Shown here: positions 7,711 to 10,173 of the stretch, piece after piece
Position numbering within the stretch: the stretch's first letter is position 1
Layout of the letters: the number at the start of each line of letters is the position of its first letter
Assembly (NCBI GenBank): GCA_900315195.1
Contig: OMYD01000012.1
Location: forward strand, 1 to 33,532
Length of the DNA: 33,532 bases
Direction: 5' to 3'
Source of the DNA: an uncultured Eubacteriales bacterium
Lineage (GTDB): Bacteria; Bacillota; Clostridia; Oscillospirales; Acutalibacteraceae
Translations under genes and position numbers: made by a program
The notes under the pieces: generated by a model
The model's input: only the letters and a program-made list of their open reading frames with translations
Database searches by the model: none
Told to the model about the DNA's origin: nothing

Positions 7711-8151
7711 ATGAAAAAAGCAATAGCACTGTTACTCTCAATTATCTTTGCTTTTTCGCTGGCGTCATGTCAACTGTTCTCATCGGATGATAAAAAAGAA
7801 TATTCAAGCAGTTATACAGCTTTAATCACGGAGAAGAACAGTTCAAACGGCAATAACCAACCTGACGAAAGCATGTTGAATACATATATTTCGATCCTTA
7901 CCGGTGACTCTCTATGCGATGCTGTACGTAGTTATTTGGATGTAAAATATACCAAAAGCGAGATCAAGAATTCAATTCAGGCTAATATTATAGATAACTC
8001 AAAAATCATTCAGATAACAGCAACCGCCGAAACACCCGAAAATGCATATAAAATCGCAAAGGCACACACCAGCGTTGCTCCTCAGTATATAACAATGTAT
8101 TCGGAAGGAGCTTCGATGAAGATAATAGATTATCCTAAATTGTCAAAATAA
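7711..8151 (+). CDS. Lipoprotein with a Wzz/YveK-like domain
   Basis: The 146-residue protein has a signal peptide ending in a lipobox (LASC, lipid-modified Cys20), then a low-complexity Ser/Asn/Lys linker. From about residue 34 onward the pattern (YTALI... LNTYISIL... SLCDAVRSYL... IKNSIQANIIDNSKIIQITATAETPENAYKIA... MKIIDYPK) resembles the extracytoplasmic domain of Wzz-type chain-length regulators and CapA/YveK tyrosine-kinase activators. Those proteins normally have two membrane helices, and both are absent here. It follows purD by 27 bases with its own AGAGGAT ribosome binding site and precedes a terminator, so it may be read from the purine operon. The domain call is by eye and tentative; the lipoprotein call is firm. 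Confidence 0.7.
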   Translation: MKKAIALLLSIIFAFSLASCQLFSSDDKKEYSSSYTALITEKNSSNGNNQPDESMLNTYISILTGDSLCDAVRSYLDVKYTKSEIKNSIQANIIDNSKIIQITATAETPENAYKIAKAHTSVAPQYITMYSEGASMKIIDYPKLSK

Positions 8152-8201: not shown

Positions 8202-8969
8202 TTATGACGCGTTTTTAAGCTGCAATCTCAGTCTGTCCGAAATCATCGCAATAAACTCGCTGTTGGTGGGCTTGCCTCTGTCGTTGTGAATGGTGTAGCC
8301 GAAGTACGAGTTCAGCACGTCAATGTCGCCCCTGTCCCACGCAACCTCAATGGCGTGGCGGATAGCGCGTTCAACGCGGCTTGAGGTCGTTTCGTATTTT
8401 TTGGCGACAGACGGGTATAATTGCTTTGTAACAGCATTTATGATTTCGGGGTGCTCAACAGACATAATAATCGAATCGCGCAGATAGTGATAACCCTTGA
8501 TGTGAGCGGGAACGCCGATTTCGTGCAGGATTTCCGTCACTTTAAGCTCAATTCCGAATGCGTCAACGCTTATGGGCATTTTAAGCAGACGGTCGCTTTT
8601 CTTCACCATAAGGCAGACATTCTCGCACAGCTGCTCAATGTCATAGGGCTTGAGAACAAAGTAGCTCGCGCCGCCGTTCATTATCTCGCGCTCAAGCACC
8701 GCGCTGTGAAACGCCGAGAAAACAATGAACATCGGCTGTTTGCAGTTTTGGCGCTGAATGCTGCGCATAACGCCAATAGCGTCAAGTCGCGTCATAAAAG
8801 ATTCCATCAGCACAACGTCGGGCTGCTCCTGCAAAATCCGGCTGCAAAGCTCGTCACCGTCCTTTGAGCAGAAAGCGACGGAAATATTAAATTTTTGAAA
8901 TATTTCAAGGGTTTGTCTGTCAAAATCGGCGGCGTTTTCGGTCATCATCATCTTAATATTATTGTCCAT
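8202..8969 (-). CDS. spo0A: Sporulation master regulator Spo0A with a degenerate receiver site
   Basis: A receiver domain (about residues 4-125) is joined to the Spo0A DNA-binding domain (about 133-255). The DNA-binding half is well conserved: HEIGVPAHIKGYHYLR, the recognition helix region SRVERAIRHAIEVAWDRG, and KPTNSEFIAMISDRLR. In the receiver, the position of B. subtilis Asp56 is Glu56 (DVVLMESFMTRLD, codon GAA), and the acidic pair Asp10-Asp11 aligns with Glu11-Asn12. The Thr switch is Ser (FSAF) and the conserved Lys survives (VLKPYD). The upstream neighbour is spoIVB, the standard order, so this appears to be the orthologue, not a stray paralogue. GGAGA precedes the ATG. Whether it can be phosphorylated is open. 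Confidence 0.95.
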   Translation of the reverse strand: MDNNIKMMMTENAADFDRQTLEIFQKFNISVAFCSKDGDELCSRILQEQPDVVLMESFMTRLDAIGVMRSIQRQNCKQPMFIVFSAFHSAVLEREIMNGGASYFVLKPYDIEQLCENVCLMVKKSDRLLKMPISVDAFGIELKVTEILHEIGVPAHIKGYHYLRDSIIMSVEHPEIINAVTKQLYPSVAKKYETTSSRVERAIRHAIEVAWDRGDIDVLNSYFGYTIHNDRGKPTNSEFIAMISDRLRLQLKNAS

Positions 8970-9005: not shown

Positions 9006-9034
9006 ATTTTACCACAAAATGGCAAACTTGGCAA
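9006..9034 (-). promoter_or_regulatory. Sigma-A type promoter of spo0A
   Basis: Read on the - strand, TTGCCA (9034-9029) and TAAAAT (9011-9006) are separated by 17 bases, in the 148-base gap between spoIVB and spo0A. The predicted start is near 9000, about 30 bases before the spo0A ATG. I saw no clear 0A box (TGTCGAA) in this gap. Confidence 0.6.
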
Positions 9035-9117: not shown

Positions 9118-10173
9118 TTAGTCGTGGTTATTCGACGCCATATTTTGAGCTGTTATCGCATATCCCTGATCGGTGTTGTTCAGAAAAACATGGGTCACCG
9201 CTCCCGCAAGCTTACCATCCTGAACAATGGGACTGCCGCTCATGCCCTGCACGATTCCGCCGCATTCGTCAAGCAGCTTCTCATCTGTAACTTTTATTAC
9301 AAAGTTTTCATTTGAATCGGGATCGGTATTGCGTATTTGGGTTATTTCAATCTCGTAGCAGCCCACACCTTCGTCATTAATTGTAGTATAAAGCTGAGCC
9401 TTGCCCGGTTTTATTTCGCCGTTTTGAGCAAGCTCAAGCGTAACGCCATCGGGCTTTATGCCGCTGTCGATCGTTCCGAACACACCGCAGTCGGTATTCC
9501 TTGTCAGCCTGCCGAGCTTTGTATCGGTAAAATATCCGTTCAGGCTTCCGGCTTTGCCCGCCGAGCTTTTTGTCACCGAGCCGATATCCGCGCGCACGAC
9601 CTCGGCGTTTCCGAGAGGCATTAAGCTGCCTGTATCTTTATCGCAGATACCGTGTCCCAGCGCCGCAAATATGCCCGTGCTTTTGTCGTAATAGGTCACT
9701 GTGCCGATTCCGGCGCAGCTGTCGCGCACCCACGCGCCCAAAAGGTAAACCCCTACGGTATTCTTTTTCGGAATAACCGTTTTGACAAGCTCCTTGCCGC
9801 CGCGCTCAACGTTGAATTTTATCGGATCGCCGCCGCAGCCGAACGTTGCCTGCTGCAGCTCCTCGTTATTTTTTACGGGCGAGCCGTTGACCTTTTTTAT
9901 AATATCGCCTTCCTGAAGTCCGCCGACCTCAGCGGGGCATACATATTTGCCGTTGCTGTAAAAGGCTTCAAGCTCCGTTACAATAATTCCGTCGTTAAAA
10001 AACTTCACGCCGAACGACTGTCCGCCCAAGCTGACGGTTTTCGGAATGTTGTTTTCCGCCGCGGCAAAAAGCGGCGCGCCGTTAAGCAGTACCGCGGCAC
10101 AAAGGGCAACTGCCGCGTTTTTTGTTATGCCTGCAACTTTGACGCCTCGATGCGGTTTTACAAATTTTTTCAA
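9118..10173 (-). CDS. spoIVB: SpoIVB signalling serine protease
   Basis: In Bacillus, SpoIVB is secreted from the forespore and cleaves SpoIVFA, releasing SpoIVFB to process pro-sigma-K. The 351-residue protein has an N-terminal hydrophobic signal/anchor (about 17-38), a PDZ domain (about 58-135, with GLQEGDIIKKVNGSPV), and the protease domain. The catalytic triad is H174 (ALGHGICD), D297 (VTDEKLL) and S312 (GIVQGMSGSP), with the Asp-Ser spacing seen in B. subtilis. It is shorter than the ~425-residue Bacillus protein, mostly at the N terminus. The start is a TTG behind GAAGGTGA. spo0A lies 148 bases downstream on the same strand. Confidence 0.95.
   Translation of the reverse strand: MKKFVKPHRGVKVAGITKNAAVALCAAVLLNGAPLFAAAENNIPKTVSLGGQSFGVKFFNDGIIVTELEAFYSNGKYVCPAEVGGLQEGDIIKKVNGSPVKNNEELQQATFGCGGDPIKFNVERGGKELVKTVIPKKNTVGVYLLGAWVRDSCAGIGTVTYYDKSTGIFAALGHGICDKDTGSLMPLGNAEVVRADIGSVTKSSAGKAGSLNGYFTDTKLGRLTRNTDCGVFGTIDSGIKPDGVTLELAQNGEIKPGKAQLYTTINDEGVGCYEIEITQIRNTDPDSNENFVIKVTDEKLLDECGGIVQGMSGSPIVQDGKLAGAVTHVFLNNTDQGYAITAQNMASNNHD

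Follow-up and report, generated by a model that had tools for sequence, protein, structure and literature searches.

The spo0A gene lies on the reverse strand at positions 8202 to 8969 of the window, by which we mean the whole 33,532-nucleotide stretch of DNA that was analyzed, and is an intact open reading frame with an ATG start that encodes 255 amino acids. Profile matches and a structural model divide the protein into a receiver (residues 4 to 122), a linker (residues 123 to 139), and a Spo0A_C DNA-binding domain (residues 140 to 252). The protein scored 268.8 bits against the curated family TIGR02875 (cutoff, 200), and in Pfam it matched Spo0A_C (PF08769) with 157.4 bits (cutoff, 25) and Response_reg with 41.1 bits. 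The predicted structure (mean pLDDT, 84.8; pTM, 0.52; pLDDT below 50 at residues 127 to 137) matched PDB entries 1fc3 and 1lq1 in the DNA-binding domain, at 55 to 61% identity, and 1qmp in the receiver, at 22 to 27% identity. Both folds were thereby confirmed, and the monomer model does not resolve the active from the inactive state. The recognition region appears conserved at the level of sequence. The upstream neighbor of spo0A is spoIVB (9118 to 10173, reverse strand), the product of which matched PF05580 with 247.8 bits and TIGR02860 with 302.4 bits, just below the cutoff of 305.25. A likely spo0A promoter was predicted from sequence alignment at positions 9006 to 9034 on the reverse strand, with TTGCCA (9034 to 9029) and TAAAAT (9011 to 9006) separated by 17 bases, and alignment indicated that the promoter core is alike in relatives with Glu and with Asp at residue 56. 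Downstream of purD, a small open reading frame on the forward strand (7711 to 8151) matched polysaccharide chain-length proteins weakly (44.1 bits; cutoff, 296) and matched no Pfam family.

Textbooks present Spo0A phosphorylation as the gate through which endospore formation commonly passes. In the window protein, codon 56 is GAA (8802 to 8804, reverse strand) and places Glu where the Spo0A receivers in the PDB have the phosphoacceptor Asp56; the same alignment put no alternative Asp at the site. The acidic pair Asp10-Asp11 is replaced by Glu-Asn at codons 11 and 12 (8934 to 8939, reverse strand), as determined by multiple alignment since the HMMER alignment begins further on. Glu is the commonest residue at the first position of the pair in the family (121 of 206 sequences). 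The remaining pocket residues were located by alignment to the PDB receivers: Ser85 (8715 to 8717, reverse strand) stands at the place of Bacillus subtilis Thr86, and Lys107 (8649 to 8651, reverse strand) stands at the place of Lys108. Thus, the sequence-only reading, which had claimed Glu at residue 56, Glu11-Asn12 at the acidic pair, a retained Lys, and the usual spoIVB-spo0A order, was borne out on each point, the last by the open reading frames and profile matches at the locus. The window genome (2.11 Mb in 125 contigs, 96% complete, 6.34% contamination) gave a single match in a Spo0A_C profile search, and the next three protein matches scored at most 24 bits, two of them being regulators that adjoin kinases. 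Having a receiver fold with Glu in place of the phosphorylatable Asp56, the protein is an aspartate-less receiver. We conclude that the protein descends as a Spo0A orthologue but is missing the acceptor on which the canonical mechanism depends.

Glu56 was found in all 16 genomes of one clade within the genus of Ruminococcus bromii, which we take to be Ruminococcus_E of the Acutalibacteraceae in GTDB. Six members of the clade are RUG isolates, presumably rumen assemblies. On the R. bromii side, 31 relatives had Asp at residue 56, among them the nearest sister genome, G444; R. bromii itself has Asp56 (L078 and L080). Of 161 genus genomes, the 26 with the most similar Spo0A were all read at this residue, giving 16 Glu and 10 Asp, as was part of the rest of the genus, where there was one Asn56 (L091, assigned to the genus solely from its tree position); there may be Glu56 members beyond the 16. 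The codon was GAG in 11 genomes and GAA in 5, and because 16 genomes carry Glu56 with two kinds of codon, the sequencing error against which a check had been advised does not account for it. The lineage without a Spo0A phosphoacceptor that had been proposed from the window is therefore real and extends to the whole clade.

Three trees bear on the origin of the substitution. A Spo0A tree of 275 sequences, built with the pocket columns left out, recovered the Glu56 sequences as one group of 16 (SH-aLRT, 93), a SpoIIGA tree placed 14 Glu56 sequences on one branch (support, 94/88), and a SpoIVB tree placed all 16 on one branch with weak support (69/27); in the latter two, the Asp56 genome G444 was nearest. 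Since the trees agree, Glu56 was most likely fixed once and inherited vertically. The absence of reversion adds little, as Asp and Glu are mixed at only 4 of the 27 all-acidic sites of the clade, and site 56 is one of the 23 unmixed.

The rest of the pocket is constant within the clade, with Lys107, Ser85, Phe104, and Glu11 each present in 16 of 16 sequences; the acidic pair reads Glu-Asp in 12 of them. Compared with the 31 Asp56 relatives, eight sites were clearly shifted (17, 22, 35, 56, 76, 127, 128, and 131), and only at sites 22 and 56 did the two groups have no residue in common. Codon 17 (8919 to 8921, reverse strand), just ahead of helix alpha 1, encodes Asp in 15 of 16 clade members and Ser, Thr, Leu, or Pro in the relatives. 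Codon 22 (8904 to 8906, reverse strand), within alpha 1 (residues 18 to 26 in the model), encodes Glu in 15 members and Asp in 1 and encodes Lys, Gln, or Asn in the relatives. The sister G444 has Ser17, Lys22, Asp56, and Ala131, and sites 17 and 22 turned acidic on the branch that gained Glu56, where the linker also came to be more conserved. Glu22 is not special to the clade, as it also occurs in 19 other family sequences and in 31 of 69 sequences from outside the family. Alpha 1 is a receiver face on which histidine kinases dock. A study of the Spo0 system mentions seven specificity residues (PMC6136694).

The linker (codons 123 to 139; 8553 to 8603, reverse strand) was more constrained in the clade, with a pN/pS of 0.276 versus 0.487 in Asp56 sisters. 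At matched synonymous divergence (0.42 to 0.50), the values were 0.251 for the clade, 0.630 for the sisters, and 0.626 for all relatives; the difference is seen above a synonymous divergence of 0.35 and disappears in the closest pairs, which are few in number (3 among the sisters). For the receiver, pN/pS was 0.219 in the clade and 0.213 in the sisters. Other measures were somewhat looser in the clade, namely, the median dN/dS (0.136 versus 0.088, the latter from 14 unsaturated sister pairs), the receiver-to-DNA-binding-domain divergence (5.47 versus 3.94), and the closest matched pairs (0.194 versus 0.104, the latter from 3 sister pairs), and matched pairs in two bins were mixed (0.214 versus 0.150 and 0.222 versus 0.268). 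The DNA-binding domain was the most conserved part in both groups (pN/pS, 0.056 in the clade and 0.062 in the sisters). We conclude that the Glu56 receiver is still under purifying selection but that selection equal to that in Asp56 sisters cannot be claimed.

The spoIIG promoter and, in most genomes, the two sporulation proteins searched for were retained. SpoIIGA was found in 14 of 16 Glu56 genomes and 13 of 14 Asp56 genomes, and SpoIVA was found in 15 of the 16 Glu56 genomes, as a partial sequence in two of them, and in all 14 Asp56 genomes, as a partial sequence in one. The spoIIG promoter had TGACA and ATAAT blocks 22 bases apart (21 between full hexamers) in all 27 loci, 14 of them from Glu56 genomes, a long spacing reminiscent of the spoIIG promoter that Spo0A activates in B. 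subtilis. With the promoter, SpoIIGA, and SpoIVA kept, the target side looks unchanged in the Glu56 clade, and the change would lie in how Spo0A becomes active. In the window genome, a histidine kinase and response regulator pair lies directly upstream of spoIIGA (L367, G000:C23, 4033 to 6052, reverse strand). A HisKA match is also near spoIIGA on contig C11 of G075, but G061 and G013 carry a pair of similar size on a contig other than that of spoIIGA.

Upstream of spo0A, a 0A box matching exactly and lying between −112 and −126 was present in 15 of 30 Asp56 relatives and in none of the 16 Glu56 genomes (L157, which has too little upstream DNA, was left out). The same box was also missing in 7 of the 15 nearest Asp56 sisters, G444 included, and a loss of spo0A autoregulation in the Glu56 clade was set aside on that ground. 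When 0A boxes were counted over the whole 180 bases upstream, there was little difference (12 of 16 Glu56 and 20 of 30 Asp56 genomes), because one box sits inside the end of spoIVB.

HisKA kinases numbered 102 in the 16 Glu56 genomes, 90 in 14 Asp56 genomes, and 10 in R. bromii, and kinase loss as the cause was rejected on these like counts. The window genome gave 17 HATPase matches, with C66 and C71 left out of the kinase survey, and ten kinases were identified (eight HisKA and two LytS type), nine of which adjoin a regulator. The sole HisKA kinase without an adjacent regulator (G000:C57:6224-7915) is patchy, with occurrence in 5 of 16 Glu56 genomes and 11 of 25 other genus genomes (16 of 41 in all), and a lost orphan kinase was rejected as an explanation since the patchiness holds in both groups. 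The HisKA kinases viewed in G444 (Asp56; 6 of 6) and G013 (Glu56; 5 of 5) were regulator adjacent or hybrids, with G444 kinase L429 counted as paired, judged from its neighbor; those viewed in G002 (Asp56; 6 of 7) and G061 (Glu56; 3 of 7) were all regulator adjacent. The hybrids, of 845 to 973 amino acids with a receiver in the same chain, were L427 (3040 to 5865) and L430 (401 to 2935) in G444 and L432 (2677 to 5595) and L434 (1958 to 4651) in G013. No Spo0E-like phosphatase scored above the cutoff in 49 family genomes (one weak match, of 18.2 bits, in G016), in a search that short proteins can escape and for which the B. subtilis control was positive; Spo0E therefore cannot separate the Glu56 from the Asp56 group.

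A second, divergent Spo0A_C regulator was detected in two clade members, G061 (76.9 bits) and G451 (83.6 bits, versus about 159 for Spo0A), with a different recognition helix, and the Spo0A_C search found none in the other 14. Regulators of this kind, which combine a receiver with a divergent Spo0A_C domain, occurred in 3 of 20 genus genomes searched (L446, 3686 to 4480, in G061; L447, 3779 to 4591, in G451; and L448, 2975 to 3943, in G087) and read SVERAMQNA where Spo0A has RVERAIRHA. A 111-amino-acid protein that consists of a Spo0A-like DNA-binding domain alone (L449, 2025 to 2357, on the 9.7-kb contig G193:C6) could be a Spo0A mimic of a mobile element.

To place the clade in a wider context, residue 56 was read in 206 distinct Spo0As of the family, a nonrandom sample in which it was Asp in 177, Glu in 23, Asn in 3, Pro in 2, and Trp in 1. 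The sequences were the distinct ones among 246 loci. These loci were drawn from 100 genus genomes, from 300 family genomes, for which 100 of the rows listed were taken by their place in the list, and from 80 best matches with names, and the genus is over-represented as a result of that sampling. The conserved Lys was kept in 162 of the 206 and absent in 44, and the alignment at that position is safe because the Pro that follows it was kept in all 206. Outside the family but within the same class, Asp56 was kept in 65 of 69 sequences and Lys in 64 of 69 (29 best-scoring loci and 40 hand-picked from the same list). The Asp56-less Spo0As outside the family were L313 (Glu; G500, a very small genome of about 0.8 Mb), L282 and L294 (Gly), and L312 (Asn). 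Divergence of the receiver relative to the DNA-binding domain was 3.6 to 5.5 in family groups and 1.69 outside. The DNA-binding domain itself was far more conserved within the family (pairwise difference, 0.04 to 0.16) than outside (0.33).

Within the family, the tree requires 7 or more changes at site 56 and 10 or more at the Lys, counts that are lower bounds on a quick 275-row tree with long branches. Apart from the 16 Glu56 sequences and L091, all 12 Asp-less sequences fell in one 34-member group that includes Clostridium sporosphaeroides, Caproiciproducens, and isolate HV4-5-B5C. The Lys was absent in 34 of 34 members of this group and the acidic Asp-Asp pair in 30 of 34; Asp56 was still present in 22 of 34. 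Some of the Asp-less Spo0As came from genomes of few contigs (G271, 1 contig, Trp; G320, 9 contigs, Glu). Like the window clade, the Asp-less members (HV4-5-B5C and G310, Asn; G271, Trp; G347, Pro; and G320, G193, G299, and others, Glu) keep the DNA-binding domain and SpoIVA, the latter being full length in 10 of 10 genomes searched. Unlike the window clade, they also lack the pocket Lys, and their pockets therefore look degenerate rather than mimic-like. We conclude that the Spo0A pocket erodes repeatedly in the family, by two different routes, a pattern absent from the sequence-only reading.

The window protein shares with canonical Spo0A of B. subtilis and Clostridia (TIGR02875; PDB 1qmp, 1dz3, 1fc3, and 1lq1) its domain order, the spoIVB-spo0A gene order, and the pocket Lys and Ser/Thr, and it differs in having Glu for Asp56, Glu-Asn for Asp10-Asp11, and Thr for Pro60. 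Aspartate-less receivers such as CmrT of Clostridioides difficile (Glu53), AtvR, and ChxR likewise have Glu at the phosphoacceptor place, and CmrT and AtvR keep the Lys and Thr/Ser with one residue of the acidic pair altered (PMC4395418 and PMC12548384). The pocket signature of CmrT, Glu with a kept Lys, Ser/Thr, and first acidic residue, is present in all 16 clade members. In the CmrT crystal structure (2QZJ), pocket contacts form without phosphate, Thr and Lys are kept, constitutive activity was inferred, and the single E53A change had a small effect (PMC12548384). Whereas those receivers belong to regulators of OmpR or NarL type, the window protein is a sporulation master regulator with an Asp56 sister lineage for comparison. 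Full-text searches, mostly of open papers and in part by title, abstract, or passages, found no report of a natural Spo0A without Asp56 among the papers listed, and a comparison across Firmicutes locates the change in the kinases and regards the specificity of Spo0A as conserved (PMC6136694). Aspartate-less receivers are a known kind, whereas the existence of one that is the master regulator of sporulation is, to the extent of these searches, new.

We favor, with a probability of about one-half, the reading that Asp phosphorylation is not the switch in the Glu56 clade, that Glu56 and Lys107 together with compensating changes hold the receiver in an active-like state, and that activity is set by the amount of Spo0A or by a partner. 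Asp phosphorylation would no longer switch Spo0A in the clade; Glu56, held by Lys107, Ser85, and Glu11, may mimic or replace the phosphoryl contacts; and the receiver would rest in an active-like, dimer-prone state, as proposed for CmrT with its Glu53, the nearest analogue. The new acidic residues at alpha 1 would be in keeping with freedom from a kinase, and the linker's new conservation would fit an altered coupling of receiver and DNA-binding domain. The timing of sporulation would then depend on the amount of Spo0A produced or retained, or on a partner protein, rather than on a kinase signal at residue 56. Against this reading stand the like HisKA numbers, the occurrence of Glu22 beyond the clade, and the measures by which the receiver is somewhat looser. 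The sequence-only reading had suggested such control without phosphorylation: its premise, a missing phosphoacceptor, stands clade-wide, and the control itself is our best reading of the sequences.

The main rival, more so for the 34-member group, is that Glu56 is no phosphomimic and that the receiver, like other aspartate-less receivers, is phosphorylation independent, with its state set by another input such as a partner protein, ligand, redox, or pH. A review cites Green 1991 for the finding that a lone Asp-to-Glu change leaves Spo0A short of constitutive activity, which weakens the phosphomimic reading (PMC4395418). The rival is supported by the loss of the Lys and, mostly, of the acidic pair in the 34-member group, where 5 of the 12 Asp-less members have Pro, Trp, or Asn, residues unable to mimic a phosphoryl group, and SpoIVA is nonetheless full length. 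The same review states that in some receivers Glu is able to stand in for the phosphorylated form and that, among aspartate-less receivers, it is the most frequent substitute, at 26% (PMC4395418). The kept Lys, Ser, and Glu11 in the window clade fit Glu56 phosphomimicry better, and the partner or ligand is hypothetical; we consider this rival possible but unlikely for the clade.

It is improbable that phosphorylation persists at another acceptor in the window protein (Ser57, Asp51, Asp63, or the Glu at residue 56) with kinases still controlling sporulation. The like kinase numbers in Glu56 and Asp56 genomes would accord with such an arrangement, as would the conservation of Asp51 and Asp63 in 16 of 16 members and of Ser57 in 14 of 16, and Glu is phosphorylatable in principle according to the review (PMC4395418). 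Ser57 is unmarked as a new site, however, because 20 of 31 Asp56 relatives have it too and 2 of 16 clade members have Ala instead, and the lone orphan kinase was found in only 5 of 16.

Decay, in which control of sporulation is on its way out of the lineage and Glu56 marks a weakened allele that is tolerated, seems quite improbable. Six clade members are uncultured assemblies, hence their spores are unseen, the exact 0A box upstream of spo0A is absent across the clade, and dN/dS and relative divergence point to a somewhat looser receiver. The 0A box is also missing in many of the nearest Asp56 sisters, however, the pN/pS values of the DNA-binding domain and receiver are low, and most clade genomes retain SpoIIGA and SpoIVA along with the spoIIG promoter. 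Finally, an artefact or a second real Spo0A elsewhere is hardly credible: despite the 125 contigs and 6.34% contamination of the window genome, two Glu codons in 16 genomes refute the former, and for the latter, which a copy in an assembly gap could still provide, there is one Spo0A_C protein in the window genome, and the extra regulators of G061 and G451 are divergent and absent in 14 of 16 members.

Returning to the favored reading, in which phosphorylation is no longer the switch, an extension to the family stands at roughly even odds: Spo0A would have escaped phosphorylation of its Asp on several occasions and along two routes, one with Glu in a pocket otherwise intact and the other with Lys loss followed by Asp loss, and sporulation would be started by control that bypasses Spo0A phosphorylation. 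The Glu56 clade, its Asp56 sister, and the group with Pro, Trp, Asn, or Glu form a natural series for a direct test of the need for phosphorylation. R. bromii sporulates and plays a keystone role in starch degradation in the human gut (PMC5814915), and since it belongs to the same genus, the timing of sporulation in its relatives bears on the survival and spread of gut anaerobes. Having kept the switch and, for the most part, the spore genes examined and lost the residue that is phosphorylated, the uncultured gut bacteria of the Glu56 clade probably decide on sporulation by other means.
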